IMG/VR virus record: IMGVR_UViG_3300036828_000389
Coordinates: 1-64,000 of that record
DNA from: a virus
DNA: 64,000 bases
Reading direction: 5' to 3' (one strand)
Both the position numbers and the translations under genes were made by a program. Below, in pieces: positions 2,248 to 16,079 of the stretch (position 1 is its first letter; the number at the start of each line of letters is the position of its first letter). The notes under the pieces are model-generated. The model did no database searches. It was given only the letters and a program-made list of their open reading frames with translations, and was not told the DNA's origin.

Positions 2248-2429
2248 GACCGGCCTCGCAGGCTGGGCATGGTATGCCCGACGTGGTAACCACCGCAGTA
2301 CTTGCAGAGGTACACCGTGGCCTGGGAGGGCAGCGAGCCGTACATACGTTGCAGGCGCCGGGAGTGGCTCATGGCCTGACCCCGGCTCCTGTAGCGCCGC
2401 TTCTTGCCGCAGCTGCGTACCTTTCCCAT
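2244..2429 (-). CDS. Small CxxC/HxxxH zinc-finger-like protein (61 aa)
   Basis: A basic N-terminus (GKKRRYRSRGQA) is followed by YLCKYCGGYHVGH near residues 41-53, which resembles a C2H2-type metal site. Basic proteins with a CxxCxxxHxxxH element recur in actinophages. The metal and nucleic-acid binding are inferred, not shown. It ends in an ATGA overlap with the next gene. Confidence 0.65.
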   Translation of the reverse strand: MGKVRSCGKKRRYRSRGQAMSHSRRLQRMYGSLPSQATVYLCKYCGGYHVGHTMPSLRGRS

Positions 2430-2433
2430 GCCA

Positions 2434-2754
2434 TCACCTTACACCCTCTGGAGGAGGAGTGCAACTCATCTCCAGAAGTGCCTTGTGTTGCGCCTGAAGT
2501 GCGGGCACCGCATCGAAACGGGTGCGGAAATAGCCCAGGAAGGCTGTCTCGCGGTCGATGGCGTGCCACTTCAGCTGCATCTCAGGCGTGTCTGAGGGGT
2601 GCCAGGGGGCCCGCTGAATGAGCCAGCCCACGAATATGTCGTTGACGTACACCCGCTCCACCCGGCCGTTGCCACAGCGCTCAAACCGCCAGTGGTCACC
2701 AGGGGGGACGCCATCCCAGTGCATGGCGTCCCCGAAGTCGTCGTCCCAGGTCAT
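2434..2754 (-). CDS. Hypothetical protein (106 aa)
   Basis: Unrecognised protein starting MTWDDDFGDAMHWDGV. The centre (NGRVERVYVNDIFVGWLIQ) looks like a small beta-sheet. Its ATG sits in an ATGA overlap with the upstream gene. No function can be assigned. Confidence 0.6.
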   Translation of the reverse strand: MTWDDDFGDAMHWDGVPPGDHWRFERCGNGRVERVYVNDIFVGWLIQRAPWHPSDTPEMQLKWHAIDRETAFLGYFRTRFDAVPALQAQHKALLEMSCTPPPEGVR

Positions 2755-3989: not shown

Positions 3990-4174
3990 GACGGTGTCCT
4001 CTCTATGTTGAGATCCTCGCCCCAGCCGATCCCGACGGTGACTTCACAATCGAAGGTGTAACGGAACATGCGAACCTCGATGATGCTCGCACCGATGCGA
4101 ACCTCTCGGACGCTGCCATTCCATTCCTGGACGTAGTCCCCGGCACGGAGCTTCTGGGCCTTGATCTTCTGCAT
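3986..4174 (-). CDS. Small SH3-like hypothetical protein (62 aa), leaderless start
   Basis: MQKIKAQKLRAGDYVQEWNG and the following REVRIG resemble a small SH3/KOW-type beta-barrel, where GD.V and a second G..V turn are typical; this is a weak fold guess. The frame is open 13 codons further upstream, but the ATG at 4174 sits six bases after a TATGAT hexamer. That geometry is shared with the plus-strand genes at 6320, 7499 and 11942, so a leaderless start here is far more likely. Confidence 0.65.
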   Translation of the reverse strand: MQKIKAQKLRAGDYVQEWNGSVREVRIGASIIEVRMFRYTFDCEVTVGIGWGEDLNIERTPS

Positions 4175-4180
4175 ACCCCC

Positions 4181-4208
4181 ATCATACACCCGGGCTGAGA
4201 CAATGCAA
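4181..4208 (-). promoter_or_regulatory. Leaderless-type promoter (TTGCAT-N16-TATGAT) for the 4174 gene
   Basis: On the minus strand the conserved box AGAAATGACTTGCA contains the -35 TTGCAT (4203-4208). Sixteen bases later comes TATGAT (4181-4186), then GGGGGT and the ATG. It is one of eight copies of this promoter type, lies inside the gap between the genes ending at 4216 and starting at 4174, and would drive the genes from 4174 leftward. Confidence 0.7.
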
Positions 4209-4215
4209 GTCATTT

Positions 4216-4569
4216 CTAGACGAGGACTGCTTCCCTGGCAGCTGTCTTGGCCGCTCTGGGCTTGTACGTCCTGATCAACAGCGAGCGCCGGATCAGTTCA
4301 CCGCGTAGGTTGGGGCGGCTGCCCTGGCCCACGATGGTGTTGTACAGCCGGGGGTAGCGGTAATAGCGCTGGAGGATACGCATGTTCGGCCCGATGTAAT
4401 CGAACCGCTCCGTGGTACACCTGGTGCAACGCAGGCACAGCACGCCCGTGGCGGTCCGGAACAGGTCTGAGTTCACCTCCGCGGTGGGGTTGTCATCCCA
4501 GCTGTGGCCCACGGTCCGGCACAGGACGTAGTCATCGGCCAGTTCCGTGATATCAACGCGCTCAAGCAT
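4216..4569 (-). CDS. Zinc-ribbon-like protein (117 aa) of a common actinophage type
   Basis: The order C17 (DDYVLCRTVGHSW), then LCLRCTRC near residues 44-49, then a tail rich in Arg, Tyr and Pro (LQRYYRYPRLYN) matches a family of small zinc-binding proteins seen in many actinobacteriophages as far as I recall. Its function is unknown. It overlaps the upstream gene by 8 bases (ATGCTTGA), and the stop is just before the 4.2 kb promoter. Confidence 0.65.
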   Translation of the reverse strand: MLERVDITELADDYVLCRTVGHSWDDNPTAEVNSDLFRTATGVLCLRCTRCTTERFDYIGPNMRILQRYYRYPRLYNTIVGQGSRPNLRGELIRRSLLIRTYKPRAAKTAAREAVLV

Positions 4570-4879
4570 CTCTCACCTTTTCTGCTATCCAAATGGCTCC
4601 CTCTTCGTCCACGATGACCTTCATGCCGTCAATCTCCTTGAAGCTGGCGGACTTCGGCCGGGCGGGCTTGGGGATGGGGACTAGCTCCTGGGACGTGACC
4701 CGCTCAGCTGCCTGGATCTCCTTGATGGTCGACGCCTTGCGCTTGTGGTCGTAGCGGGGGTCGCGGCGCTTGATGCCGGTGGCGCCCCCGTAGAGCTTGT
4801 GCGTTTCTCGCATGTGCTGATACAGGTACGGCACGCCCAGTACGCGACCGCATGCTGGGCATGGCTCCTTCGTGGCCAC
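4562..4879 (-). CDS. C2H2 zinc-finger-like protein (105 aa)
   Basis: Residues 7-26 contain CPACGRVLGVPYLYQHMRETH, i.e. C-x2-C then H-x4-H, a classical C2H2 arrangement. A basic linker (KRRDPRYDHKRKAST) follows, then a beta-rich C-terminus. The GTG start directly follows the upstream stop. DNA binding is a reasonable inference but untested. Confidence 0.65.
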   Translation of the reverse strand: MATKEPCPACGRVLGVPYLYQHMRETHKLYGGATGIKRRDPRYDHKRKASTIKEIQAAERVTSQELVPIPKPARPKSASFKEIDGMKVIVDEEGAIWIAEKVRDA

Positions 4880-5089
4880 TCACTCACCCCACAGTTCTGG
4901 GTTCTTGGCCCTGCTCAATGCAGTCTCCATCGCCCGCTCAGCCTGGTTGGCGTGGTCGTATGCCTCAGCGATATCGGAGTCCAGTAGAGCCTCCCCGTCG
5001 AGTGCCTCCAGGGCAGCGATCAGGGTGACGGTCTTGCGGTGGATGGCGCCCACTTGGGCGCGGATGGCGACAATCTCAGGTCCGGTCAC
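4880..5089 (-). CDS. Small helical hypothetical protein (69 aa)
   Basis: Predicted all-helical, with Ala-rich segments (VTLIAALEALDGEALL, AYDHANQAERAMETALSRA). I chose the GTG at 5089 because it overlaps the upstream stop as GTGA, the usual junction here; a second GTG one codon upstream is possible. Function unknown. Confidence 0.55.
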   Translation of the reverse strand: MTGPEIVAIRAQVGAIHRKTVTLIAALEALDGEALLDSDIAEAYDHANQAERAMETALSRAKNPELWGE

Positions 5090-5424
5090 CACGCCACCTT
5101 GTCCCCGTCGTACCAGCGCAGCGAGTAGGTGGTCCCACAGCCCTTGCGGACGGCCTCAGCGGTGTCGTGATCGCCCTGGGCCTCGTATTCATCAGCGAGC
5201 CGGTCCTCACCCGAGCAGCGAGCCACATAGCCAGCGGGTGCGTCCCTGCGCCCCAGTTGGTTGGCCTTGCGCTCGATGGTGTAAGCGGAGCAGCCGCAGC
5301 TATCGCACTGCTCGCCCCCCCACTCCTCGCCCACCATGCCCAACAGCTGCTCCATGTCCTCAGCGACCAGCTGAGGGGAGTCCACCTTGCGGACGTGTAC
5401 CCCTATGACCAGGTCTTCACTCAT
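5086..5424 (-). CDS. Cysteine-containing hypothetical protein (112 aa), first gene of left operon
   Basis: Cysteines occur as EQCDSCGCS (residues 38-45) and later C70 and C96, consistent with a zinc site. The ATG at 5424 follows GGAGAGTA. The frame is open much further upstream, but that part runs through the divergent promoter region and is not credible. It would be the first gene transcribed leftward from the promoter at 5464-5491. Confidence 0.65.
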   Translation of the reverse strand: MSEDLVIGVHVRKVDSPQLVAEDMEQLLGMVGEEWGGEQCDSCGCSAYTIERKANQLGRRDAPAGYVARCSGEDRLADEYEAQGDHDTAEAVRKGCGTTYSLRWYDGDKVAW

Positions 5425-5463
5425 TACTCTCCAGTTCCTCTCTTGGTTGACGGTTCGCCCCCC

Positions 5464-5491
5464 ACTATACACCCATGACGGGCCTGTGCAA
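5464..5491 (-). promoter_or_regulatory. Leftward promoter of the divergent pair (TTGCAC-N16-TATAGT)
   Basis: On the minus strand TTGCAC (5486-5491) is followed after 16 bases by TATAGT (5464-5469). The upstream part, AGATTTGGCTTGCAC, is a diverged copy of the box found at the other promoters. Unlike most of those it leaves about 35 bases of leader with a Shine-Dalgarno sequence before the 5424 start. Confidence 0.65.
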
Positions 5492-5509
5492 GCCAAATCT
5501 AGAAATGAC

Positions 5510-5537
5510 TTGCGGATGGCGTCGCCGGGTGTATAGT
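5510..5537 (+). promoter_or_regulatory. Rightward promoter of the divergent pair (TTGCGG-N16-TATAGT)
   Basis: The box AGAAATGACTTGCGG gives the -35 at 5510-5515, and TATAGT follows at 5532-5537 after 16 bases. About 30 bases of leader with AAGGAG separate it from the 5572 start. It faces away from the leftward promoter 20 bases to its left, so one region could control both the minus and plus early operons. Confidence 0.7.
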
Positions 5538-5571
5538 GGGGGCACATCGTCAACGAGTAAGGAGCATGGCA

Positions 5572-6006
5572 ATGGCAGTGAGCTACGAGGCCCAGGTGGA
5601 GCGCCGGGCGGGACAGAACTACATGGTGATCAAGCGCACCGTGACCATCACGCCCAAGAGCGGGCGTGGGCGGGAGTGGAGCAAGCAGGAACGGGAACAC
5701 CAGATCCAGGTGCTGCCCCTGCTGGAGGTCAGCGACCTCATGACTGCGCTCAGCAATGGCTTTCTCTTCGCTGTGCCCGACCCTGCTGGCCACCCGGATG
5801 AGAGCGGCCCTACCGACCTGGGTACTGAGCCCAGCTACCTGCTGCGGGACACGGCGGACAGCGAGCCTATGCCCTTCTGGTCTTACGACGAGGCTATGGC
5901 CCACGTCTTTGAGATGCGCCGCGAGGGCCGTCATACCAAGGGCTGGCGTATCAGCCGCATCGAGGCGGACGGCAGCGAGGACATGCTGAACGTGGTGCAG
6001 GCATGA
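5572..6006 (+). CDS. Hypothetical protein (144 aa), first plus-strand gene
   Basis: Unrecognised. It begins MAVSYEAQVERRAGQNYMVI and is predicted alpha/beta. The ATG at 5572 lies seven bases after AAGGAG; an ATG two codons upstream is too close to it. The C-terminal stretch EAMAHVFEMRREGRHTKGW looks helical. It ends in an ATGA overlap with the next gene. Confidence 0.65.
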   Translation: MAVSYEAQVERRAGQNYMVIKRTVTITPKSGRGREWSKQEREHQIQVLPLLEVSDLMTALSNGFLFAVPDPAGHPDESGPTDLGTEPSYLLRDTADSEPMPFWSYDEAMAHVFEMRREGRHTKGWRISRIEADGSEDMLNVVQA

Positions 6007-6284
6007 CCAGGCGCACCAGGCGTGGCACGGGCACCAAGCGTCCGTGGCACGTCTTCGTGCGGGACATCGGACCCACGTTCACCTACGCCACGGAGGAGCG
6101 GGCCCGCGCCAAGGTGGAGGAACTGCGTGGGGAGTACGGGTTCATCGTCCTCACGGGCCCGTGCCCCCGCGCCGTGTATGGCTGGGAGCGCACCAACTTC
6201 GTGTACGGGCGGGAGCCCTACGTCGAGGTGCTGACCGATGGCGAGGGCTGGGTCCAGGTCCGTACAGGTCAGATCCAGAAATGA
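6003..6284 (+). CDS. Basic hypothetical protein (93 aa)
   Basis: A basic N-terminus (TRRTRRGTGTKRPWH) precedes a compact domain with several aromatic residues. Its stop codon TGA lies inside the AAATGACTTGC box of the next promoter, so coding and regulatory sequence are interlocked. Function unknown. Confidence 0.6.
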   Translation: MTRRTRRGTGTKRPWHVFVRDIGPTFTYATEERARAKVEELRGEYGFIVLTGPCPRAVYGWERTNFVYGREPYVEVLTDGEGWVQVRTGQIQK

Positions 6285-6285
6285 C

Positions 6286-6313
6286 TTGCAACACAGAGCC
6301 AGAGGGGTATGAT
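6286..6313 (+). promoter_or_regulatory. Leaderless-type promoter (TTGCAA-N16-TATGAT) for the 6320 gene
   Basis: The -35 TTGCAA (6286-6291) sits in CCAGAAATGACTTGCAA. TATGAT (6308-6313) follows after 16 bases, then GGGGGT and the ATG at 6320. The short distance leaves no room for a ribosome binding site. Confidence 0.75.
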
Positions 6314-6319
6314 GGGGGT

Positions 6320-7219
6320 ATGAGTAAAGACCTGACCACGCAAACCCCTGTCGAGATCGACACCGAACTGGCCCGCATCTGGAGCCTGATCGACCGGGCC
6401 GATGAGGCCATCGCCCACATCAAGCACGACCTGGCCCGCAAGCTGACCTACGGGCTCCGCAAGGGTGAACTGGCCCTGGTCGGGGCGAATCGGGAACTGG
6501 CTGAGGCCAACCTGGCCCGCTACCAGGAGGCTCTGGTTGCCCTCCGGGCCGAAGCTGCCCCCTTCAACGCTGAGTACGACCGCCGGGGTCGCTGGCACCG
6601 GTACTTCCTGGTGGACAACACCAACGGCCATGTCCATCGTGACATGGGCTGCTCAACCTGCTTCCCCACCACCCGCTACAAGTGGCTCATCGAACTGGCT
6701 GACTGCAACGAGGACGCCATGATCGAGGAGTGGGGCGAGATGGCCTGCACCGTTTGCTTCCCCTCCGCTCCCACCAACCCCCTGTACAACCGGCCCAGCC
6801 GTCGTGACCGCGAGGCCCAGGAGGCCCGTGCCGCCGAGAAGGCTGCTCGCCAGGCCGTCAAGGATGCCAAGGGCATCACCGATGTCGACGGCTCGCCCCT
6901 CCGGGGTGAGTACGGGGTCATCAAGACCAAGGTGGCCGCTCGCAACGAACTGTCCAGTGCCTTCAGCAGCCTGGCCTGGTACGGCCTGGATCACCCCCAG
7001 GACTTCGCTGCCAAGATCCGCCACCTCATCCCTGCCCTGGAGGCAGCTGGTGTCGATTGGCGCAAGGCGGCCACCAACGCGATCAAGAGGACCGCCAAGG
7101 AGATCAACCAGCCCAACCCCTATGCCCACCAGCTGACCGCTGAGCAGGTCGCTGAGACCGCCGCCAAGCAGGCTCGCAGCCTGGCCCAGGCCCAGGCTCT
7201 GCTGGCAGAGGTGCTGTGA
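6320..7219 (+). CDS. Zinc-binding-motif protein (299 aa), leaderless
   Basis: Residues 1-80 are helical and probably coiled (ELARIWSLIDRADEAIAHIK). A central domain near residues 92-152 has W.RYFLVDN, H..RDMGCSTCFPT and MACTVCFPS; this H/CxxC/CxxC block occurs in other actinophage and actinobacterial proteins of unknown function. The C-terminal half is Ala/Lys-rich and helical. The ATG six bases after TATGAT fixes the start. Confidence 0.7.
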   Translation: MSKDLTTQTPVEIDTELARIWSLIDRADEAIAHIKHDLARKLTYGLRKGELALVGANRELAEANLARYQEALVALRAEAAPFNAEYDRRGRWHRYFLVDNTNGHVHRDMGCSTCFPTTRYKWLIELADCNEDAMIEEWGEMACTVCFPSAPTNPLYNRPSRRDREAQEARAAEKAARQAVKDAKGITDVDGSPLRGEYGVIKTKVAARNELSSAFSSLAWYGLDHPQDFAAKIRHLIPALEAAGVDWRKAATNAIKRTAKEINQPNPYAHQLTAEQVAETAAKQARSLAQAQALLAEVL

Positions 7220-7491
7220 TGACCGGGCCCCGCCATTGCGGCATCCATGGTGACGACACCACCAGTGGACGCTGTGCGTCCTGTGACGCCGCTGAGGCGC
7301 ACAACCACATCTTCCGCACCTTTCTCGGTCTGCCCCCCACCAAGGGGGACAGGCCGGTCTGTGGCGCCCTCCTGCCCGACAGCTGGGACTTCCCAGGTCA
7401 TGAGCGCCCAGCATGCCCCCACTGCATGACCTGGGCCACCTCACAACTCTCGTCTGGAAATGACTTGCAAGTCACTGAGCCAGGGGTATGA
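7219..7491 (+). CDS. Small Cys/His-rich protein (90 aa)
   Basis: Pairs of metal ligands are visible: CGIHGDD, CASCDAAEAHNH, VCGALLP and CPHCMTW, enough for two zinc sites. The ATG overlaps the preceding stop by one base (TGATG); a GTG one codon earlier is also possible. Its stop TGA lies within the -10 hexamer TATGAT of the next promoter, so the C-terminus is encoded by promoter DNA. Confidence 0.6.
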   Translation: MTGPRHCGIHGDDTTSGRCASCDAAEAHNHIFRTFLGLPPTKGDRPVCGALLPDSWDFPGHERPACPHCMTWATSQLSSGNDLQVTEPGV

Positions 7492-7492
7492 T
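7465..7492 (+). promoter_or_regulatory. Leaderless-type promoter (TTGCAA-N16-TATGAT) for the 7499 gene
   Basis: TTGCAA (7465-7470) within CTGGAAATGACTTGCAA is followed after 16 bases by TATGAT (7487-7492), then six bases and the ATG. Apart from the spacer it is nearly identical to the 6286 promoter. It lies entirely within the 3' end of the preceding gene. Confidence 0.75.
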
Positions 7493-7498
7493 GGGGGT

Positions 7499-8497
7499 AT
7501 GGACTTGAGCAAGGAGATCGAGATGACGCCCGAGCAGGAGTACGAACTGGTGTACCAGGGCATCGTGGCCGTGGCCGCCCACTGTGACGGGGCCCAGAGC
7601 CTCGACTACATGGGCTTCGATGGCCAGGACACGCACTACGGGCGCCGGGTGGCCGCGGCCACCTTCGATGCCTGGACCCCTGACGTTCGCCAGGAGTGCG
7701 CCCGCATCGCCAACAAGTATCAAAAGCAGATCCTGCGCTGGACCGGCATCGACGTGACCACTCTCCAGGTGGTCAGGGATGCCCTGGGCAAAGACACCAA
7801 CCGCGCCGCCCGCGACATGGCTCGCACCTACGAGCGCCGGGCCCAGGGCGCCTCCGAGATGTCCAAGCGTCGCGTCCAGGTCGAGAACGGCAAGCTGACC
7901 GTGTCCTGGGCCAGCCGGGGCCCGGGGAGCAAGGGTGATCCTGATTTCTTCGCCCTGGTGGATCTGGTCAAGAAGCTGCCGGGCCGGTTCTGGAATGGCC
8001 ACAGCAACGAGGTCAGTGTCTCAGCTGAGCTTGAGGTCTTCATCAACGAGTGGGACTTCACCGTGAGCCCGGAGGCTGAGGCCATCCTGAGCCAGCCCGT
8101 GGCGCCTCACTTCGACGTGGATGTCCACCCGAACGGTGAGCAGATCGTGATCGACACTCAGCTGACCGCATACGAGCCCGGCCTGAGCATGGTCAAGGCT
8201 CTGCCTGGTCGAGCCTTCAATCCGGCCAACCGCACCAACCACGCGGCCATCAATCCCGCCGTGATCCCCTTCGCCCAGCGTCTGGGGCTCTCCATCAGCC
8301 CTGAGGCTCTCCAGGCGTGTCAGAACGCGGAGGCAGCCCTCCGGGCCACGGAGACTCGCAAGCTGGCTGAGGGTGACATCAAGACCGTTATGGCTCATGT
8401 GAGCCGGGCCGAAGGGCCCCAGGATCTACCGCCAGCATTCATCGAGATGCTCCGTCCGGTGCTGGCCCGCTACGGAGCAGAAGGAGCAATCCAATGA
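7499..8497 (+). CDS. Tandem HARP-like repeat protein (332 aa)
   Basis: Residues 127-197 and 207-275 look like two copies of one domain. Each has a short beta hairpin, a VKxLPGRxxN turn (residues 157-166 and 232-241), then a helix ending in a (D/G)(F/L)(T/S)(V/I)SPEA motif. This pattern resembles the HARP-type DNA-recognition domain found in front of SMARCAL1-like SNF2 helicases. Here it has no helicase attached; the SNF2 motor is two genes downstream (9044). The N-terminal 120 residues are a separate domain of unknown role containing HCDGAQSLDYMGFDG. The function as a DNA-binding partner of that helicase is inference. Confidence 0.65.
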   Translation: MDLSKEIEMTPEQEYELVYQGIVAVAAHCDGAQSLDYMGFDGQDTHYGRRVAAATFDAWTPDVRQECARIANKYQKQILRWTGIDVTTLQVVRDALGKDTNRAARDMARTYERRAQGASEMSKRRVQVENGKLTVSWASRGPGSKGDPDFFALVDLVKKLPGRFWNGHSNEVSVSAELEVFINEWDFTVSPEAEAILSQPVAPHFDVDVHPNGEQIVIDTQLTAYEPGLSMVKALPGRAFNPANRTNHAAINPAVIPFAQRLGLSISPEALQACQNAEAALRATETRKLAEGDIKTVMAHVSRAEGPQDLPPAFIEMLRPVLARYGAEGAIQ

Positions 8498-8985
8498 TTG
8501 GGAAGGTGTATTGGCAGCCTGGTGGAGTAACACCACACAACACCATGGCTGATGGCCCCTGTGGCATGTGCTACGCCCGGGGCTTCATCTACGAAGAGGA
8601 CGCCTGGGGCCGCCCCCTGGGCCAGATGCCATGCCCGTACTGCCACGGCACCAGGGACAACTCCTGGGAGAAGGAGCAAGCCTGGCAGGAGCAGCAGAAG
8701 CGGGACAAGAACAAGGGCATCCGCGTTGGTGTCCTGGTGGGTGCCGTCTGCTTGTCCGTGATGGGCTGGCAGCATGACTGGAATGGCTGGGGTGCCGTGG
8801 TCTGGTTCCTTGGCCTGGTTGTCGCCTACTGCGCCCTCCGCTACCACATGGCCCGGTCGCGCTCCGAACAGCCGCCGGATCCCTTCATGACTGAGAACGA
8901 GGCCAAGAAGGTGCAGCAGGCCCACATGGCCGCCAACCTGGGCGTGCTGCTGTCCATCATCCTGCACCAGCACCGACGCCGGTAG
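8494..8985 (+). CDS. DnaJ-type zinc-motif membrane protein (163 aa)
   Basis: Two CxxCxxxG-like knuckles (CGMCYARG at residues 23-30 and CPYCHG at 47-52) resemble half of a DnaJ cysteine-rich domain. A charged linker follows, then two hydrophobic stretches near residues 77-94 and 100-117 that are probably membrane helices. It overlaps the previous stop in ATGA and has AAGGAG upstream. The gene sits between the HARP-like protein and the SNF2 helicase; its role is unknown. Confidence 0.6.
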   Translation: MIGKVYWQPGGVTPHNTMADGPCGMCYARGFIYEEDAWGRPLGQMPCPYCHGTRDNSWEKEQAWQEQQKRDKNKGIRVGVLVGAVCLSVMGWQHDWNGWGAVVWFLGLVVAYCALRYHMARSRSEQPPDPFMTENEAKKVQQAHMAANLGVLLSIILHQHRRR

Positions 8986-9007
8986 ACAAGGCTCGTCTGG
9001 AAATGAC

Positions 9008-9036
9008 TTGCATGTCTACACCCATGGGGGTACTGT
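9008..9036 (+). promoter_or_regulatory. Leaderless-type promoter (TTGCAT-N17-TACTGT) for the SNF2 gene
   Basis: GGAAATGACTTGCAT contains the -35 (9008-9013). TACTGT (9031-9036) follows after 17 bases and the ATG at 9044 comes seven bases later. A near-palindrome TACACCCATGGGGGTA (9017-9032) fills the spacer and touches the -10, where a repressor could act. Confidence 0.65.
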
Positions 9037-9043
9037 GATGGTG

Positions 9044-10516
9044 ATGACTTACACCGTGAACTTCGACAGCTGGCTTCCCGACAAGGTGAGCCTGTACGAC
9101 TACCAGACCGCAGGCGTGGCCTACGCCCTGTACGCCACCGCTGGTGGCAAGGGCGCCTGGATCGCGGATGAGCAGGGGCTGGGCAAGACCATGCAGGCCA
9201 TCGTGGCCGCCAAGGTGCGGGGCTGCAAGAAGATCGGCATCTTCGTCAAGGCCAGCCTGAAGGCTGTGTGGGTCCGTGAGCTTGAGCGCTGTGCCCCTGA
9301 GTGGAACGTCCAGGTGCTGACCGGCAAGCGGCCCTACGAGGCCACCGCTGAGGTCTGCATCATCCAGTTTGACCTGCTGCATACCTGGGCCGACGCCCTC
9401 GTTGCGGAGCAGTTCGATTGCCTCATCATCGATGAGAGCCACTACGTCAAGGACACCAAGGCGCAGCGGACGCGGGCCGCTCTCAAGGTGGCCGCGGATG
9501 TCCGCAGCCGCCGGGGCATGCTCCTGCTGCTCACCGGCACCCCGCTGCTCAATCGTCCAGTGGAACTGGTGCCCCAGCTGATGATGATGGGCCGCCTCCA
9601 GGACGTGTCCCCCCCGCCCCGCTACGGCACCTCCGAGCGCGACTGGGAGTACGCCTTCAAGAACACCTACTGCTTCAGTGAGCAGAACAGCTACGGGACC
9701 AAGTACAACGGGGCCCGCTGGACCGACCTGCTGAACACCCGCATGCGGAACAGCTGCTTCGTCCGCCGTCTGCGCCGCGACGTGCTGGACATGGCTGACG
9801 CTCACCGCGTCGCCACCCCGCTGAGCCTCAACGGCGCCCTGGACCGCTACTGGGATCTGGAGAAGCACTTCGTGTCCAAGAAGCCGGAGAGCTACTGGCT
9901 GGAGCTTCTGGGCGCCCTCCGCAAGGAGGTGGGCCGGGCCAAGGTGGCCGGTGCGGTCGACTGGGTCAAGGACTTCCTGGAGGAGACCGAAGAGGATGGC
10001 AAGAAGGTGGTGGTCTGGACGTGGCATGTCGCCGTAGGTGACAGCATCGCCAAGGCTTTCCCGGGCTGCGCCAACATGCGGGAGTTCCGCTCCGGCAGCC
10101 CTGAGTTCATGGCTGAGATGGACCGGTTCAACACCGACCCTGAGTGCCGGGTGATCGTCTGCTCGCTCAATGCTCACCGCGAGGGCCTGACCCTCGTCGG
10201 CAACGGTCACAACGTCACCGACACGCTGTTCTGTGAGCAGCCCTGGCACCCTGGTGCTGTGTCCCAGGCAGAGGATCGGATCAGCCGCATCGGCCAGCTG
10301 GCCCAGGAGCGCTTCACCACCACGCTGCAAGTCCCCGGCACCGTGGATGAGTGGCTGGCCAACCTCATCGCTGAGAAGTGGGAGACCTTCAAGGGCGCCA
10401 TCGATGGCACCGTGGTCGAGGCCCAGTCCGACAACATGCAGGCCATCGTGGCTGCCCAGCTGAGGGACTCTGTGCTGGCCAAGGTGGGCCCCAACCCCGA
10501 GATCGGCCGAGTGTGA
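9044..10516 (+). CDS. SNF2-family (SMARCAL1-like) DEAD/DEAH helicase (490 aa)
   Basis: Helicase motifs are clear: the Q-type entry YDYQTAGVAY (17-26), Walker A DEQGLGKT (42-49), Walker B DESH (130-133), motif III LTGTPLLNR, and in the C-terminal lobe a Q-x-EDRISRIGQ-type motif VI. The SNF2 order and the RISRIGQ box place it in the SNF2/SMARCAL1 group, which remodels or anneals DNA using ATP. The protein begins almost at the first helicase motif and lacks an N-terminal HARP domain; HARP-like repeats are encoded separately at 7499. The start at 9044 is chosen from the leaderless promoter; ATG 9038 is in frame too. Confidence 0.85.
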   Translation: MTYTVNFDSWLPDKVSLYDYQTAGVAYALYATAGGKGAWIADEQGLGKTMQAIVAAKVRGCKKIGIFVKASLKAVWVRELERCAPEWNVQVLTGKRPYEATAEVCIIQFDLLHTWADALVAEQFDCLIIDESHYVKDTKAQRTRAALKVAADVRSRRGMLLLLTGTPLLNRPVELVPQLMMMGRLQDVSPPPRYGTSERDWEYAFKNTYCFSEQNSYGTKYNGARWTDLLNTRMRNSCFVRRLRRDVLDMADAHRVATPLSLNGALDRYWDLEKHFVSKKPESYWLELLGALRKEVGRAKVAGAVDWVKDFLEETEEDGKKVVVWTWHVAVGDSIAKAFPGCANMREFRSGSPEFMAEMDRFNTDPECRVIVCSLNAHREGLTLVGNGHNVTDTLFCEQPWHPGAVSQAEDRISRIGQLAQERFTTTLQVPGTVDEWLANLIAEKWETFKGAIDGTVVEAQSDNMQAIVAAQLRDSVLAKVGPNPEIGRV

Positions 10517-10776
10517 GCCCCATACCCCCAGCAGCCCCCCAGGAGCCCCTCAGGGGGCTTCTGGCGCGTCTGGAGCCCATCCTGGTCAGCTTCTCTGTCC
10601 TGCTCACGCCACGCCGGGGCTCGCCGGGCCCAGGGCTGGTGGACCGTGACCATGTGGAGGTGCGCCCCACCTACGCCTCCCAGATTCCCAGGATCATGCG
10701 CCTGCTGGAGCAGGAGGGCTGGCAGACCTACGACCAGGGCTGGTGCGTGACCACCTGGCCCCAGACACAGTTCTGA
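10513..10776 (+). CDS. Hypothetical protein (up to 87 aa), start uncertain
   Basis: The C-terminal half (VEVRPTYASQIPRIMRLLEQ and on) reads like genuine protein, but the first 20 codons lie across a strong hairpin at 10539-10564. A GTG in a GTGA overlap with the SNF2 stop gives the 87-residue form; a GTG at 10639 would avoid the hairpin and give 45 residues. Function unknown. Confidence 0.4.
   Translation: MSPIPPAAPQEPLRGLLARLEPILVSFSVLLTPRRGSPGPGLVDRDHVEVRPTYASQIPRIMRLLEQEGWQTYDQGWCVTTWPQTQF
10539..10564 (+). terminator. GC-rich hairpin after the SNF2 gene
   Basis: CCAGGAGCCCC pairs with GGGGCTTCTGG across a TCAG loop, 11 pairs with one wobble, 22 bases after the SNF2 stop. There is no U-tract. 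Similar GGAGCCCC hairpins follow the genes ending at 11788, 12892 and 14801. Confidence 0.55.
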
Positions 10777-10788
10777 TCCAGATATGAC

Positions 10789-10816
10789 TTGTGCAACCAT
10801 CCCATGGGGGTATAGC
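10789..10816 (+). promoter_or_regulatory. Leaderless-type promoter (TTGTGC-N16-TATAGC) for the 10826 gene
   Basis: The box AGATATGACTTGTGC gives the -35 at 10789-10794, and TATAGC (10811-10816) follows after 16 bases. The spacer ends in the partial palindrome ATCCCATGGGGGTAT. ATG codons occur 0 and 9 bases after the -10; the second begins the same MTSIP peptide as the gene at 11942. Confidence 0.65.
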
Positions 10817-10825
10817 ATGCCTGAC

Positions 10826-11788
10826 ATGACATCGATTCCCGAGACCTTCACGGTCAAGCTGACACCCAACCAGGCGTACCTCCTGGACGACATGCGCGTG
10901 GCTGGCTCCGACAGCTACCACGAAGCCCTGGACGCCGGGGCCCGGGTCGAGGGGCTCAAGCTGATCATCCCGGTCGCGGCCGTCGAGCCCCTGGGCACTG
11001 CCATTGGCATCCGGGCCGACATTGCCGACGAGGGCAACTACGACATCGGGGAGCGGTCCAGCTGGCTGGGCCTGGCCAAGAAGGTAGCCAAGGCCACCGG
11101 CAATCGCCGGGCTCTGCCCCTCCAGCCTGCTGATGTCATGCCCGCCTCCCAGCCTGCTGAGTGGGACGACAACGAGCAGCCGCCCCCTGGCTACGGCCCC
11201 TCAGTCGTCCTGCATCGCCTGGCCGATGAGCCTGAGGCCCAGGACGAGCGTGAGTTCGAGATCACCCACGGCATGTGGACCGCCAGCCAGATGCAGGCTG
11301 AGCCGGAAGTCGTCGCTCAGGCCCAGGCCCATCGCATGATGGATCGCCTGGATGTCGAGGAGGACGACGCCATCCGCGGTGACCTGATCACCGACCTCCA
11401 GGACATGGCCGACGCCCACCCTGAACTCAAGGACGAGATCCGGGCCTACGGCATCCCGGTCGAGTCCGCTCCTGAGCCCACTCAGCCCAGGCCAGCCCAC
11501 TTCCGGGCCCCGGCCAAGGCATTCGACGCCCAGGGTCGCCACACGGGCCCAGGGGAGTGGCTGAACCTCATCCACGCTGTGAACCGGGCCGCCAAGGAGG
11601 CCAACCTGCCCATGCTGTTCGGCACCCCTGACTCCACGGGTGACTGGTGGGCCGGTGGCTACGTCGAGGAGTACTTCGACGCCCGTGTCCTGCACCGCAC
11701 CGATGAGACCGTGTCCATCATCAGCAAGACCGACCGCGGCGCCCACTTCATGCGGCTCGTCGCCCAGGCCAATGGCTGGGAGGTCTGA
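10826..11788 (+). CDS. Hypothetical protein (320 aa)
   Basis: Unrecognised. Residues 8-90 appear to be a folded alpha/beta domain, the middle (residues 100-180) is rich in Pro, Gln, Glu and Asp and is probably flexible, and residues 225-320 form a second domain (GEWLNLIHAVNRAAKEANLP, FMRLVAQANGWEV). It starts MTSIP like the downstream PAPS-reductase-like gene, and the first bases and promoters of both genes are alike. A 10-11 bp hairpin follows its stop. Confidence 0.65.
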   Translation: MTSIPETFTVKLTPNQAYLLDDMRVAGSDSYHEALDAGARVEGLKLIIPVAAVEPLGTAIGIRADIADEGNYDIGERSSWLGLAKKVAKATGNRRALPLQPADVMPASQPAEWDDNEQPPPGYGPSVVLHRLADEPEAQDEREFEITHGMWTASQMQAEPEVVAQAQAHRMMDRLDVEEDDAIRGDLITDLQDMADAHPELKDEIRAYGIPVESAPEPTQPRPAHFRAPAKAFDAQGRHTGPGEWLNLIHAVNRAAKEANLPMLFGTPDSTGDWWAGGYVEEYFDARVLHRTDETVSIISKTDRGAHFMRLVAQANGWEV

Positions 11789-11824
11789 TGACCACATGAC
11801 CCCACCAGCACCCCACAGCTGACC

Positions 11825-11850
11825 ACAGGAGCCCCTCCGGGGGCTCCTGT
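11825..11850 (+). terminator. Perfect 11-bp GC hairpin after the 11788 stop
   Basis: ACAGGAGCCCC and GGGGCTCCTGT pair perfectly across a TCCG loop. It lies 37 bases after the stop and is followed by TTGCATG rather than a U-run. It probably separates this gene from the next, which has its own promoter. Confidence 0.6.
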
Positions 11851-11906
11851 TGCATGTCCGGGCCCGGGTCACACTGGGAGGCACACAGGTCTCGTCCAGA
11901 GATGGC

Positions 11907-11935
11907 TTGCATAGCAGTCAGCCTGGGGGTACGGT
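11907..11935 (+). promoter_or_regulatory. Leaderless-type promoter (TTGCAT-N17-TACGGT) for the 11942 gene
   Basis: AGAGATGGCTTGCAT holds the -35 (11907-11912). TACGGT (11930-11935) follows after 17 bases, then GGGGGT and the ATG at 11942. The arrangement matches the 6286 and 7465 promoters. Confidence 0.7.
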
Positions 11936-11941
11936 GGGGGT

Positions 11942-12892
11942 ATGACATCGATACCGGCTCCCAACGCCGACGCCATGGCCGCCCTGCCCAATGCTGACTG
12001 GATCGTGGTCAACACCAGTGCTGGCAAGGACTCGTCCGTGACCCTGGACTACACCCTGGAACTGGCCGACAGCCTGGGCATCGACCACAGCCACATCGTG
12101 GCCGTCCACTGTGACCTGGGCCGGGTGGAGTGGGAGGGCACGCCGGAGTTGGCCGAGCGCCAGGTGGACCGCTACGCCGACATCCGCTTCTTCAAGGTGG
12201 CTCGCGACGGCACGGTCCGCAAGGATGGCAAGGTGCTGGGTGACCTGGTCGACCAGGTCTGGGAGCGCCATGAGGCCAACCAGGAGAAGGCCAAGACCGA
12301 CCCCCGCTACGCCAACCGCTCGCCCTGGCCCACGACCGCCAACCGCTGGTGTACCAGTGACCAGAAGGAGAGCCAGGTCACCAAGCTGATCACCCAGCTG
12401 GTGGACGACATCCTGGTGGGTGGCACCCGGAAGGACCGCAAGGACGCCTGGGTCCGCGAGGCCGACGGCACCTACACCCAACGCCCCATCCGCATCATCA
12501 ACGTGATGGGCATGCGGGCTGAGGAGTCCGAGAAGAGGAGCCAGATGCCCGAGTGGAGCCTGGACGAGTCCGCCAGCAACGGCAAGCGCACCATCTGGAA
12601 CTGGCTGGCCATCAAGGACTGGTCTGAGGAGCAGGTCTGGGACCGCATCCATGCCCAGGGCATTGAGTACCACTGGGCCTACGACAAGGGCATGGAGCGG
12701 CTCAGCTGCTGCTTCTGCGTCCTGGCCAGCCCCAAGAACTGGGCCATCGCCCTCCCTCACAACCGCCAGCTGGCTGAGTCCTACGCCGAGATGGAGCGCC
12801 GCACCGGCCATGCCATGGTGGAGCGGGCCAACGGCACCAAGGTCAGCATCCAGGACATCATCGACGCCGCTGATCGAGCAGCTGCCGCCTGA
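11942..12892 (+). CDS. PAPS-reductase-like (N-type ATP pyrophosphatase) protein (316 aa)
   Basis: Residues 24-33 carry the PP-loop NTSAGKDSSV that binds ATP in N-type pyrophosphatases. Later blocks typical of the PAPS reductase/DndC-like superfamily are RWCTSDQKE, NVMGMRAEES.KRS, WLAIKDWSEEQVW and RLSCCFCVLAS. The family activates or reduces sulfur compounds; phage members are suspected of modifying nucleic acid or sulfur metabolism. No DndB, D or E partner is visible nearby, so phosphorothioation is not supported. It has its own promoter and a terminator-like hairpin. Confidence 0.8.
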   Translation: MTSIPAPNADAMAALPNADWIVVNTSAGKDSSVTLDYTLELADSLGIDHSHIVAVHCDLGRVEWEGTPELAERQVDRYADIRFFKVARDGTVRKDGKVLGDLVDQVWERHEANQEKAKTDPRYANRSPWPTTANRWCTSDQKESQVTKLITQLVDDILVGGTRKDRKDAWVREADGTYTQRPIRIINVMGMRAEESEKRSQMPEWSLDESASNGKRTIWNWLAIKDWSEEQVWDRIHAQGIEYHWAYDKGMERLSCCFCVLASPKNWAIALPHNRQLAESYAEMERRTGHAMVERANGTKVSIQDIIDAADRAAAA

Positions 12893-12915
12893 GCCCTCCA
12901 GCCAGCTGTACCCCC

Positions 12916-12940
12916 GGAGCCCCCCACCACGGGGGGCTCT
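12916..12940 (+). terminator. GC hairpin after the PAPS-reductase-like gene
   Basis: GGAGCCCCCC (12916-12925) pairs with GGGGGGCTCT (12931-12940) over a five-base loop, 23 bases after the stop. No U-tract follows. It belongs to the same hairpin series as those at 10539, 11825 and 14806. Confidence 0.55.
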
Positions 12941-12954
12941 GTCGCGTCCAGGGC

Positions 12955-13086
12955 TCACCGGTCCACCAGCCAGCCCAGGAGAGGCCAGCCGCCCCGCCAG
13001 TCGCCATGAGCCCGGCAGAACCAGCCTGGCTCCGTGAAGCAGTGCCAGACCGCCACCAGCTGGCCACAGTCCCGACACCGGAGCAT
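12955..13086 (-). CDS. Tiny zinc-ribbon-like protein on the minus strand (43 aa)
   Basis: The frame encodes MLRCRDCGQLVAVWHC, then FCRAHGDW, ending LLGWLVDR: two CxxC/CxxH-like knuckles in 43 residues, like the small metal proteins of the 2-5 kb cluster. The ATG follows TAGCTT by six bases (GGGGGC), the leaderless geometry seen elsewhere, although no TTGCA -35 is evident. It is isolated on the minus strand within a plus-strand region, so it remains tentative. Confidence 0.4.
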   Translation of the reverse strand: MLRCRDCGQLVAVWHCFTEPGWFCRAHGDWRGGWPLLGWLVDR

Positions 13087-13164
13087 GCCCCCAAGCTACC
13101 CCCAGAGAGCCCGAATCGCTCCCAAGGCTCCAGGAGGCCATAGCCGGGCCGGAATGGGTGCATG

Positions 13165-13180
13165 TACCCCTATGGGGGTA
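13165..13180. promoter_or_regulatory. Palindrome TACCCC-TATG-GGGGTA (operator-like)
   Basis: A perfect inverted repeat of six bases around TATG. Versions of it overlap the promoters at 9008 and 10789 and occur again at 13773, 13910 and 14898. Here no gene starts immediately downstream, so a free-standing protein binding site is plausible. Confidence 0.5.
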
Positions 13181-13399
13181 TAGACGCTCCTGGAGCCCTA
13201 CAGGCCCCTCTCCTGGCCGCCAGCACCCAACCTGGCCTGGAATCCGGCCCCCAGAGCCCTCCCACACGTCTGAGGGGGTATGGAATGCGCCCATAATCAA
13301 GTGGTCATTTCGCAAAACAGCCTCCAGAGAGCCCAAAAACGGCCTCGCGACCCTCCCCAGGACCGGACAATCGGGCCCGATCCGACGTACAGCCAGGGC

Positions 13400-13597
13400 A
13401 TGTACACCGAAGCCAAGACCCTCATCCCGCACGGCATCGACGCCCAGGAGCTACGCCTCCTCCTCAGACGCGTCCAGCAGCAGGGCATGCCCTACACCAA
13501 CCGGGCCACACGTCGCAGAGCCAGCCAGGCCGCCCGCCAGGCCCGAGCCAAGAAAGCGGCCCAGCACCCCCATGTAGAGAGCTACCCAGTCAGCTGA
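13400..13597 (+). CDS. Small basic protein (65 aa)
   Basis: MYTEAKTLIPHGIDAQELRL is followed by an Arg/Ala/Gln-rich helical tail (RRRASQAARQARAKKAAQ), probably nucleic-acid binding. The frame is open upstream to an ATG at 13280, which follows GGGGGT, but residues encoded there look random. No clear ribosome binding site precedes 13400. Function unknown. Confidence 0.45.
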   Translation: MYTEAKTLIPHGIDAQELRLLLRRVQQQGMPYTNRATRRRASQAARQARAKKAAQHPHVESYPVS

Positions 13598-13772
13598 CCA
13601 GGCCATGCATGCACGCACCCATGCACCCATGCCAGCACCAGGTAGCAACTACCCCAGCACTCCACTCCCTCTCTAGCCTGGCAGCCCCCACGCAGAGTGA
13701 CCACCACTGTGGGTGTACACAGGGTGTATGCATATGCAGGGGTATGCAGGGGGGATACTCCAAACCATAAAC

Positions 13773-13790
13773 TACACCCATGGGGGCATA
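13773..13790. promoter_or_regulatory. Near-palindrome TACACCCATGGGGGCATA (operator-like)
   Basis: It matches the site in the SNF2 promoter (9017-9032) except that the right arm reads GGCATA. It sits in the gene-poor region, away from any start codon. Confidence 0.45.
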
Positions 13791-13909
13791 AACACAGCCA
13801 CCAGGGAGAAACCCTTACGTAGCAAGGGAAACAGGGCTCAGGGAGGGGGATTAGCAAACGAGTTTATGAGTTTATGGGGGTACGCCATACACCTATTCAC
13901 GCCAGTGCA

Positions 13910-13923
13910 TACCCATGGGGGTA
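13910..13923. promoter_or_regulatory. Palindrome TACCC-ATGG-GGGTA (operator-like)
   Basis: A 14-bp perfect inverted repeat, shorter arms than 13165 but the same sequence logic. A further half-like copy, TTATGGGGGTACG, is 38 bases upstream at 13872. Confidence 0.5.
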
Positions 13924-14005
13924 CAACCACCCAGAGTACCCCCACCCTTAACCACGCAGAGTGGCCAGGGGGGTCCAGGACACAGGCTCTCGTAGGAGGA
14001 AGAAG

Positions 14006-14044
14006 GGGTCGTAGTACCTGGGAGAGAGGGTCGTAGTACCTGGG
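14006..14044. repeat. 17-bp direct repeat with 22-bp period
   Basis: GGGTCGTAGTACCTGGG occurs at 14006-14022 and again at 14028-14044. The 22-bp period is about two helical turns, so proteins binding both copies would lie on the same face. It ends the gene-poor region. Confidence 0.65.
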
Positions 14045-14139
14045 GGCGATGGGGTTCTTCTACATAAGTGCTGGTCAGAGCAGGTAAACAGCGCTACAGG
14101 CGTGCTGTGAAGGCTGCCAAGCGGGGGTATGCTCGGGGT

Positions 14140-14403
14140 ATGAAACCACTGGATGAAGAGGCTGCTGACTACCTGGGTACGCACCCGGAGGCTCGCCACG
14201 CCATGCTCAAGCACAACCACCGGCTGCTCTACCGCATCAACCCGGACGGCAGCGTGACCCGGGGCCGGGAGCTTCTGGCTGAGGTGGTGAAGGGTGCAGT
14301 GCCGGAGGGCGGGGTGTACCAGTTCGATACCGACGAGGAGCATCGGCGGCTCTCGGAGCATCTGGACGTGGCCTTCAAGCGTCAGGAGGGGCGCAGCAAC
14401 TAG
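14140..14403 (+). CDS. Small hypothetical protein (87 aa), probably leaderless
   Basis: It begins MKPLDEEAADYLGTHPEARH and is predicted alpha/beta with a charged C-terminus (DEEHRRLSEHLDVAFKRQEG). The ATG at 14140 follows TATGCT by six bases (CGGGGT), the same geometry as the strong leaderless promoters, with a poor -35 (TGTGAA). The frame is open 24 codons upstream, and a longer basic N-terminus cannot be excluded. Confidence 0.6.
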   Translation: MKPLDEEAADYLGTHPEARHAMLKHNHRLLYRINPDGSVTRGRELLAEVVKGAVPEGGVYQFDTDEEHRRLSEHLDVAFKRQEGRSN

Positions 14404-14444
14404 GTGTACGGTGTACGGCGTACCTGCGAGAAAGAGGTGACGCT

Positions 14445-14801
14445 ATGGAGGCGAATCAGCTGCCAGGGGAACTGGCGCCCCTGGTGAAGGCGTGGGACGA
14501 CGACTGCTGGGCCCAGCAGGCCCGGGTGAACCGGGAGAAGGGCTACCCGGCTCCCTGGTGGTGCAACGCCATGCGAGCCCGGGGGGCGCTCCAGGCCGCT
14601 CTCAACCTCCTGCGGGAGGGGGAGAGGGCCGGGCAGCCCCAGCAGGGCTATCTGCACATGCTGGAGATCGGGGAGGTGAAGGCCAGCGTGGAGTACGGGG
14701 TATGCCGGGAGGAGTGGGCGCCGATCTGGGCCTACTTCCCCGCTGAGGTGCGTTGGGCCCGGAAGGTGTTGCGCTTGAGCGGCATCGACCCGCCGTCATG
14801 A
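14445..14801 (+). CDS. Hypothetical protein (118 aa)
   Basis: Unrecognised, rich in Trp and Ala (PAPWWCNAMRARGALQAALN, EEWAPIWAYFPAEVRWARKV). AGAGGTGA precedes the ATG at a suitable distance. It ends five bases before a strong hairpin. Function unknown. Confidence 0.6.
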   Translation: MEANQLPGELAPLVKAWDDDCWAQQARVNREKGYPAPWWCNAMRARGALQAALNLLREGERAGQPQQGYLHMLEIGEVKASVEYGVCREEWAPIWAYFPAEVRWARKVLRLSGIDPPS

Positions 14802-14805
14802 AAGT

Positions 14806-14837
14806 CGAGAGCCCCCCTGGCGGGAGGGGGGCTCTCG
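14806..14837 (+). terminator. Perfect 12-bp GC hairpin after the 14801 stop
   Basis: CGAGAGCCCCCC pairs with GGGGGGCTCTCG over an eight-base loop. It is the strongest of the GGAGCCCC-like series and again lacks a U-tract. Confidence 0.6.
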
Positions 14838-14897
14838 TAGCGCCCGGGAACTGGTCCCAGCGCAGGTCGCGGGGCGGTTCCGCGACGCCGCATAGCA

Positions 14898-14919
14898 TAC
14901 ACCCACGGGGGTGTAGGAT
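14898..14919 (+). promoter_or_regulatory. Perfect palindrome TACACCCACGGGGGTGTA overlapping a -10 (TAGGAT)
   Basis: The arms TACACCC and GGGTGTA are exact (14898-14915). TAGGAT at 14914-14919 overlaps the right arm, and the ATG at 14927 lies seven bases later, so this looks like an operator on a leaderless promoter. No TTGCA -35 is seen, which may mean the promoter needs an activator. Confidence 0.5.
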
Positions 14920-14926
14920 CCCGGTC

Positions 14927-15121
14927 ATGGCGAGGTATCGGGTCCAACAGAACCGCTCGGGCTGGCTGGTGCTGGACGGCAACACCCCGGTCAACTTCTT
15001 CTCAGCTGTAGATCCGGATCAGGGTCACGCCTCTGCCACCAGGTGGAACGTGGCCTACCAGCGGGCCCAGGACGAGGTCGACTGGCTGAATGCCCAGGAG
15101 GCGCCAGCCCGTGATCGGTGA
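14927..15121 (+). CDS. Small hypothetical protein (64 aa)
   Basis: It reads MARYRVQQNRSGWLVLDGNT and then a helical stretch (ATRWNVAYQRAQDEVDWLN). The start is placed by its position after TAGGAT and the palindrome. Function unknown. Confidence 0.55.
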   Translation: MARYRVQQNRSGWLVLDGNTPVNFFSAVDPDQGHASATRWNVAYQRAQDEVDWLNAQEAPARDR

Positions 15122-16079
15122 GAGCCTGCGGCCCCGGGATGTAGCGTATCTCCGCGGTCAACTACGGGACTGGTGGGCCATCCCGGGCGAGTTACAGTAC
15201 AAGCTGGCCATGCACGGGCGCCGGGACATGCCCGGCTGGAAGATGTCCGGCGACGAGACCGAACAGACCCGCCAGCACTACGCCTACGCCCTGGCCAAGG
15301 CCGATCTGTACTGGATATCGCCCGACATGAGTGACATGGTGGCCACTCTGGCTCCTTCTATACCGGATTGCATGCCCTACCCGCCCTGCCCCTGCGGCTT
15401 CGCCCTGTTCGCTCGCTCCATCCCCGGCATCGACGCCGTGGACGGCAACCAGATCTACACCACCGGCTTCCTGTGGGCCCAGATCAACCTGGCCAACCTG
15501 GGTGACTGCCTGGCCGTCACCACCTACAGCTGGCGGGGCCTGGTGAAAGCCTTCGACCAGCTGAAGAAGGAGAACCGGCGCCGGGAGGCGGAACTGGATC
15601 GCAAGCTGTCGGAGGTCATGCCCACCCAGCTGTTCCCGACCGGGGGCTGGGAGTGGCCGGAGGGGCACATGATGGAGGACTTCTCCAGCCTGCCCCCCAG
15701 TAGCGCCATCATGGAGGCGTCGATCCTGGAGGATCGCCGGATCCTGTCAACCTTCTGGACCCTCTGCTCGCAGAAAATCACCGTCGAAACAAGAGCCCAG
15801 CCCTCCAGGAATGAAATACGGGCAGCCACCCGGAAACGGCTCCCCGTACCAGTCGATGAGGTCCGCGTCATCAACCTGCGAGAGGTCGAGACGCGGCATC
15901 CAGGTCAGAATGGGCGGGATATCGATTGGCAGTATCGCTGGATCGTGTCGTCGCATTGGCGGAACCAGTATTACCCTTCCCGGGGCGAGCATATGCCCAA
16001 ACTGATCGACGCTTACCAGAAGGGGCCGCCGGATCGCCCCCTCAAGGTCCGCGACACCGTGAAAGCGCTGGTGCGCTGA
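15111..16079 (+). CDS. Hypothetical actinobacterial/phage protein (322 aa)
   Basis: The C-terminal 60 residues (DWQYRWIVSSHWRNQYYPS, then a KGPPDRPL element) match a domain that, as I recall, recurs in actinobacterial and actinophage proteins of unknown function, where W.V.GHWR.Q..PS is typical. The rest is mixed, with PPCPCGFALF near residue 90. GTG 15111 is preferred because AGGAGG lies about ten bases upstream; an in-frame ATG at 15090 is the alternative. Confidence 0.6.
   Translation: MIGESLRPRDVAYLRGQLRDWWAIPGELQYKLAMHGRRDMPGWKMSGDETEQTRQHYAYALAKADLYWISPDMSDMVATLAPSIPDCMPYPPCPCGFALFARSIPGIDAVDGNQIYTTGFLWAQINLANLGDCLAVTTYSWRGLVKAFDQLKKENRRREAELDRKLSEVMPTQLFPTGGWEWPEGHMMEDFSSLPPSSAIMEASILEDRRILSTFWTLCSQKITVETRAQPSRNEIRAATRKRLPVPVDEVRVINLREVETRHPGQNGRDIDWQYRWIVSSHWRNQYYPSRGEHMPKLIDAYQKGPPDRPLKVRDTVKALVR

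Follow-up and report, generated by a model that had tools for sequence, protein, structure and literature searches.

Comparison with known promoter systems

Leaderless genes are recognised by a TANNNT motif placed approximately 12 bp ahead of the start codon. They are most common in Actinobacteria, where they account for >20% of genes (PMC3160421), and leaderless messages make up about a quarter of mycobacterial transcripts (PMC3160421; PMC4633059). Here, we describe a repeated, putatively leaderless promoter element, composed of a conserved box, a -35 hexamer and a -10 hexamer, in the first 64 kb (positions 1 to 64,000; hereafter the window) of the 75,516-base IMG/VR record IMGVR_UViG_3300036828_000389 (63% GC). 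The window encodes terminase, portal and contractile-tail baseplate proteins and represents a newly found, soil-type tailed phage; a megablast search of the window against phage records gave no match. Its terminase is approximately 50% identical to those of Streptomyces phages of the BRock group and 80-85% identical to those of several uncultured contigs, and the host is presumably an actinobacterium. Host leaderless genes are not known to carry a common upstream box.

The window promoters resemble the TA-led genes of Actinobacteria in having TANNNT approximately 12 bp before the ATG and no Shine-Dalgarno (SD) site (PMC3160421; PMC4633059). An earlier note on this DNA had compared them with the start-associated sequences (SAS) of some mycobacteriophages, adding that the sequence differs; that comparison was apt, and the extended SAS (ESAS) promoters of cluster K are the closer match. 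These are 46-47 bp cassettes with SigA-like -35 and -10 hexamers that are repeated before unrelated genes (PMC3203893; Adephagia promoters, PMC11373665), and their inverted-repeat sequence varies between subclusters, akin to the turnover of boxes described below. However, the ESAS lies upstream of a 13-bp SAS that is itself 3-9 bp from the start codon, so that the message has a leader, whereas the -10 hexamer in the window lies 6-7 nt before the ATG. Direct reading of the sequence revealed no 13-bp SAS (GGGATAGGAGCCC) before the start codons of the window. The ESAS phages are siphoviral and temperate. The 17-bp imperfect inverted repeats of their promoters appear to be absent from the window, where a palindrome occurs at some copies only.

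The SigA-like promoters of cluster O (PMC4351075) are similar in that PL1, PR2 and PL2 are predicted to be leaderless, with +1 at the start codon, and include a divergent pair; however, they are few, and what is repeated in these unrelated phages is a distinct 17-bp palindrome whose position is independent of gene starts. In the Thermus phage phiYS40, an entire gene class (the middle and late mRNAs) is leaderless, and changed levels of IF2 and IF3 aid translation (review, PMC3594737); the likeness concerns the leaderless class, and both host and phage are different. Leaderless genes are nothing unusual among Actinobacteria, and phages with repeated promoter cassettes are also on record (cluster K ESAS, cluster O). 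What appears new is that a box is repeated, that the -10 is joined to the ATG at a fixed distance and that the boxes turn over as a set; none of the systems compared (cluster K, cluster O, host leaderless genes and phiYS40) has all three. In arrangement, a further parallel is the Streptomyces phage phiC31, in which several near-identical promoters, containing conserved inverted repeats, precede early lytic genes.

Nine copies of the putative promoter element in the window

The eight promoters reported in the earlier note are all present, with boxes at 4206-4216 and 5489-5499 on the minus strand and from 5502, 6278, 7457, 9000, 10781 and 11899 on the plus strand, and each copy has the proposed geometry of TTGNNN, a 16-17-nt spacer and TANNNT or TANNNC. 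The box of the minus-strand copy at 5464 (GATTTGGCTTG) departs at one position from the box pattern given there. A ninth copy had been overlooked (2472..2429, minus strand); it reads GAGATGAGTTGCAC, 17 nt, TAAGGT, GATGGC and the ATG of gene 2244-2429.

In seven of the nine copies, 6-7 nt separate the end of the -10 hexamer from the ATG: 2429 (minus), 4174 (minus), 6320, 7499, 9044, 10826 and 11942. Four of these have exactly GGGGGT between the two, as had been noted. The minus-strand copy at 4174..4216 has the box GAAATGACTTG, the -35 TTGCAT (4203-4208), a spacer of 16 and the -10 TATGAT (4181-4186). The plus-strand copies at 6278..6322 and 7457..7501 both have the -35 TTGCAA, a spacer of 16 and the -10 TATGAT (6308-6313 and 7487-7492, respectively), and precede genes for proteins of 299 aa (ATG 6320) and 332 aa (ATG 7499). 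The fourth, at 11899..11944 (plus), combines the box GAGATGGCTTG, TTGCAT, a spacer of 17 and TACGGT (11930-11935) before a gene encoding a PAPS-reductase-domain protein (ATG 11942). Two further ATGs had been described as close by. One, at 9044, begins the gene of an SNF2-like helicase 7 nt after the -10 TACTGT (9031-9036; -35 TTGCAT, spacer 17; element at 9000..9046, plus). The other, at 10826, lies 7-9 nt downstream of the -10; here the box is GATATGACTTG, and the hexamers can be read as TTGTGC-16-TATAGC or TTGTGC-18-TAGCAT (10781..10828, plus).

The remaining two copies form a divergent pair (-10 hexamers at 5464, minus, and 5532), and both have a leader with an SD site. The minus-strand copy (5424..5499) has the -10 TATAGT (5464-5469) and the ATG at 5424; the plus-strand copy (5502..5574) has the box GAAATGACTTG, the -10 TATAGT (5532-5537), the SD sequence AAGGAG and an ATG at 5566 or 5572. 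The pair (5486-5515) has a common TCTAGA centre and its boxes are 2 bp apart, so that simultaneous binding by two polymerases would hardly be possible.

Comparison with 200 dinucleotide shuffles excluded a chance origin of the motif set. GAWATGRCTTG was found six times (0.09 expected), and five times with TANNNT following after N19-20 (0 expected). The looser pattern TGRSTTG-N19/20-TANNNT occurred eight times (0.3 expected), always within 2.4-12 kb and never in the other 63 kb, and [CG]TTG-N19/20-TANNNT-N6/7-ATG occurred six times (0.28 expected).

Predicted leaderless layout in related phages

The earlier note had proposed a motif search in related phages. The exact composite patterns were absent from the viral contigs, and the exact box was absent from 20 terminase relatives; however, the layout recurs on orthologous genes. 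Two contigs, G001 (114.5 kb) and G002 (93.6 kb), carry orthologous early genes with a different upstream element and the same TANNNT-N6/7-ATG. When more contigs had been recruited through their matches to the helicase or the 7499 protein, the layout was present in all but one of the ten loci examined, the exception being the small fragment L111.

We then counted the distance from the end of TANNNT to the ATG over 602 candidate ATGs from 11 sources. The motif ended 6 nt before the ATG in 44 cases and 7 nt before it in 29, but never 5 or 8 nt before it, and positions further away had approximately 1.8 cases each; when the last 25 nt were shuffled, the cases at 6 and 7 nt together averaged 7.1 and never exceeded 15 (73 observed). 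Every candidate start lying no more than 75 nt from the called one was tried, which makes the count generous but treats every distance alike, and since the contigs come from one clade, these figures describe that clade and not independent events. The first T of TANNNT lies 12-13 nt before the start in seven of the nine window copies and in the 73 pooled starts, as in TA-led genes. An SD core preceded 13 of the 73 leaderless-type starts and 211 of 411 starts elsewhere (Fisher, 5e-8). Among the seven box-driven leaderless starts of the window, six have no SD core, and the core at 2429 overlaps the -10 hexamer.

The 73 leaderless-type proteins fall into 38 homology groups, and the helicase and the 7499 protein are each of this type in nine phages (the window phage and eight relatives). 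In a residue-by-residue comparison, the helicase start at 9044 coincides with that of the leaderless G002 ortholog (MTYTVNFD and MAHDINFD, of the same length). RNA normally begins 6-7 nt after the -10 hexamer, so an ATG at this distance would give leaderless or nearly leaderless messages. The fixed spacing over divergent sequences, the SD depletion and the conserved helicase start point strongly to transcripts that begin at or near the start codon, in agreement with the earlier note. The Streptomyces phage BRock showed no 6-7 nt peak, and the layout therefore does not reach this phage. Loci L013-L081, terminase relatives of approximately 54% identity, showed a weaker peak at 6-7 nt (25 and 15 vs 9.5 per position), and a start TAGGATAAAACATGGTACG recurs among them.

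Turnover of the boxes and the first codons

The box most similar to that of the window, CTAGnnnTGACTTGCAT, precedes orthologous genes on a 117.5-kb contig (L107/L120); it has TGACTTGCA in common with the window, but CCC or GGG replaces GAA or AAA. L118, L119 and L121 have CCTGACTTGCAT or CCTGACGTGTG, and the sequences in G001, G002 and L110 are different again and in part palindromic; in G001 and G002, a CATG-centred palindrome lies immediately upstream of the -10.

Upstream similarity was compared among 38 promoters of seven orthologous gene families with 5000 permutations. It was 0.476 for different genes within a genome, 0.394 for orthologs from different genomes and 0.373 for the remaining pairs. 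The observed difference was reached in 0 of 5000 permutations of genome labels and in 848 of 5000 permutations of gene labels. These results indicate that the boxes evolve as a set within a genome (concerted evolution), a pattern that would be expected if a single factor reads all sites or if a cassette has been copied repeatedly.

The residues at the start also track the phage more than the gene: MAHD is found in G001, G002 and L110; MAT in L118, L119, L121, L125 and L126; and MTS at 10826 and 11942 and in L107. Non-homologous genes within one phage group have their first 3-5 codons in common (ATGGCTACC, ATGGCACATGAC, ATGACATC; L107, L118, L119, L121, L125, L126, G001 and G002). Of the 73 leaderless-type genes, 44 have GCT or GCA as codon 2 and two have GCC or GCG, although GCC makes up 56% of alanine codons overall. 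In mycobacteria, leaderless genes show no preference after the start codon, and their translation needs none (PMC4633059), in contrast to the ATGGCW and ATGACATC starts of the window clade. In a speculative and rather improbable reading, each lineage of the clade would encode a factor of its own that reads a combined element of box, -10 and first codons (ATGGCW, ATGGCACATGAC, ATGACATC); if this were true, the box and first codons would change together throughout the set of unrelated leaderless genes, and a single control would govern both the transcription of the regulon and its leaderless translation.

Predicted transcription units and other elements

The earlier note held that these promoters drive individual genes. 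This fits the units at 9044-10516, 10826-11788 and 11942-12892, each closed by a GC hairpin with an 11-bp stem and no U tract, which supports single-gene units; however, the copies at 4174, 5424, 5572 and 6320 head short operons. The hairpins, all on the plus strand and possible terminators, lie at 10539..10565 after the helicase gene (z -3.4), 11825..11850 (z -3.7) and 12915..12941 (z -2.3). The genes under the promoters include those of the SNF2-like helicase and the PAPS-reductase-domain protein, and no copies lie near virion genes. In a relative, a leaderless promoter of the same layout precedes a gene for an ArdC-type anti-restriction protein (L107:4295-5251, minus). It is plausible that the set is an early regulon, as these predicted functions fit.

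A direct repeat of GGGGTA(T/C) with 11-bp spacing is present at a boxless, putatively leaderless start, GGGGTATGCTCGGGGTATG (14124..14142, plus). In the form GGGGTANNNTNGGGGTAT, with the same spacing, it occurs four times (0 in shuffles), at 6304, 7483, 11926 and 14124, the last without a box. An operator-like palindrome, TACACCCATGGGGGTA (9017..9032), runs into the -10 of the helicase promoter; the palindrome TACMCCCATGGGKGTA is found at this -10 (9031) and in four copies within 13.1-14.9 kb (13165, 13773, 13908 and 14898). These four copies and several GGGGTAT repeats lie in a long, weakly coding stretch (12900-14930) that is perhaps an operator array or a replication origin.

Proposed mechanism and alternative explanations

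We consider it fairly likely that the nine elements are repeated sigma-70-type promoters, mostly leaderless, that are used by the host housekeeping polymerase, and that a lineage-specific factor acts through the box to co-regulate them. Dispersed over the non-structural part of the genome, the nine promoters would each serve a single gene or a short operon, the host RNA polymerase contacting the TTGCAN and TANNNT hexamers. At seven copies, RNA would begin at the start codon or within 1-2 nt of it and be translated as leaderless mRNA. One DNA-binding factor specific to the phage lineage would read GTCTRGAAATGACTTGCA, just upstream of and into the -35, and co-regulate the set; the same factor would probably also read GGGKG or the palindrome at the -10. 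Such a factor could explain why boxes are alike within a genome and replaced together between genomes. What is observed is the sequence, its spacing, the conservation across relatives and the concerted evolution, whereas the transcription starts, the use of host polymerase, the factor and the sign of its action are inferred. Our confidence is high for the promoter and leaderless parts, and moderate both for the shared factor and for a housekeeping sigma.

Several observations weigh against this reading. TTGCAN agrees with TTGACA at only four of six positions, and G001, G002 and L110 have no clear TTG -35, so that the two-hexamer sigma-70 pattern is not clade-wide; these two points limit our confidence in the housekeeping sigma. 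The window copies have the 16-18 hexamer spacing of the sigma-70 type, but a generic sigma-70 scan matched just two sites, with no excess over shuffles, and the description of the promoters as strong was not borne out by their match to the consensus. As for the host, a search of genome contigs with the terminase gave no match, and one with the helicase gave only distant matches (<=31%). No regulator gene was found in the contig, which may lack approximately 40 kb, as the genome is likely close to 115 kb in size. The single shared recognition factor proposed earlier is favoured indirectly, by the concerted evolution of the boxes, but neither a sigma region 4 match nor a recognised DNA-binding family was found in the contig. 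For the protein encoded at 15090-16079, a candidate regulator, the predicted structure was unusable (predicted local distance difference test score, pLDDT, 34).

Plain host promoters, with strong housekeeping hexamers and an A-rich UP-like stretch but no phage factor, whose likeness arose by cassette duplication or recombination, are a possible but less probable explanation. The TTGN3-16/17-TAN3T geometry, the A-rich GAAAT adjoining the -35 and the commonness of leaderless genes in Actinobacteria (PMC3160421) would suit it, and copying would also give the common first codons (ATGGCTACC, ATGGCACATGAC, ATGACATC). However, neutral copying poorly explains the patchy conservation, in which the spacer is free and the core, -10 and ATG are fixed, or why the boxes, but not the -10 or its distance, diverge so strongly from phage to phage. 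We regard it as unlikely that the boxes and palindromes are repressor operators of a temperate phage (as the stoperators of cluster A or the inverted repeats of phiC31) that promoters overlap by happenstance. The palindrome TACMCCCATGGGKGTA, which is seen at one -10 as well as in the array at 13-15 kb, the 11-bp-spaced GGGGTAT repeats and the CATG-centred palindrome of G001 and G002 are consistent with operators; however, the box itself is not palindromic, the window genome and four relatives (five genomes, that of the window as an incomplete contig) have no match to the PF00589 integrase, and no repressor-like protein was found among 39 early proteins.

A phage-encoded sigma factor, or a protein that appropriates sigma, reading the box in place of the host factor appears still less likely. 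The boxes do diverge in concert between phages, and G002 encodes a 328-aa protein (L105:1063-2049) in which one helix resembles sigma region 4 and a second helix-turn-helix is of a resolvase-like kind. Its gene adjoins the ortholog of window gene 14140-14403, and it is a candidate regulator that was not found in the window. However, Sigma70_r4 had no match in the window genome (G000), G001 or G005 and a match below the cutoff in G004, and the window hexamers already suit the housekeeping pattern. A -10 of the SigB/SigF type (GGGTAT) was set aside; four copies carry GGGTGTA, and the relatives lack GGG. Our home-made gene finder often picked upstream starts (6281, 7460 and 10784), which might suggest chance likeness combined with annotation error and true starts elsewhere, but the shuffles, the distance histogram and the ortholog start alignment leave this a negligible probability.

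The sequences thus point to an uncultured phage clade in which a non-structural gene set would be placed on leaderless promoters whose spacing is kept within one base while their recognition sequence is replaced as a set. The layout also provides a straightforward criterion by which start-codon calls in genomes of this kind can be corrected. As a natural series, the clade is suited to a search for the factor that may read the boxes and to the question whether leaderless mRNAs obey sequence rules of their own.

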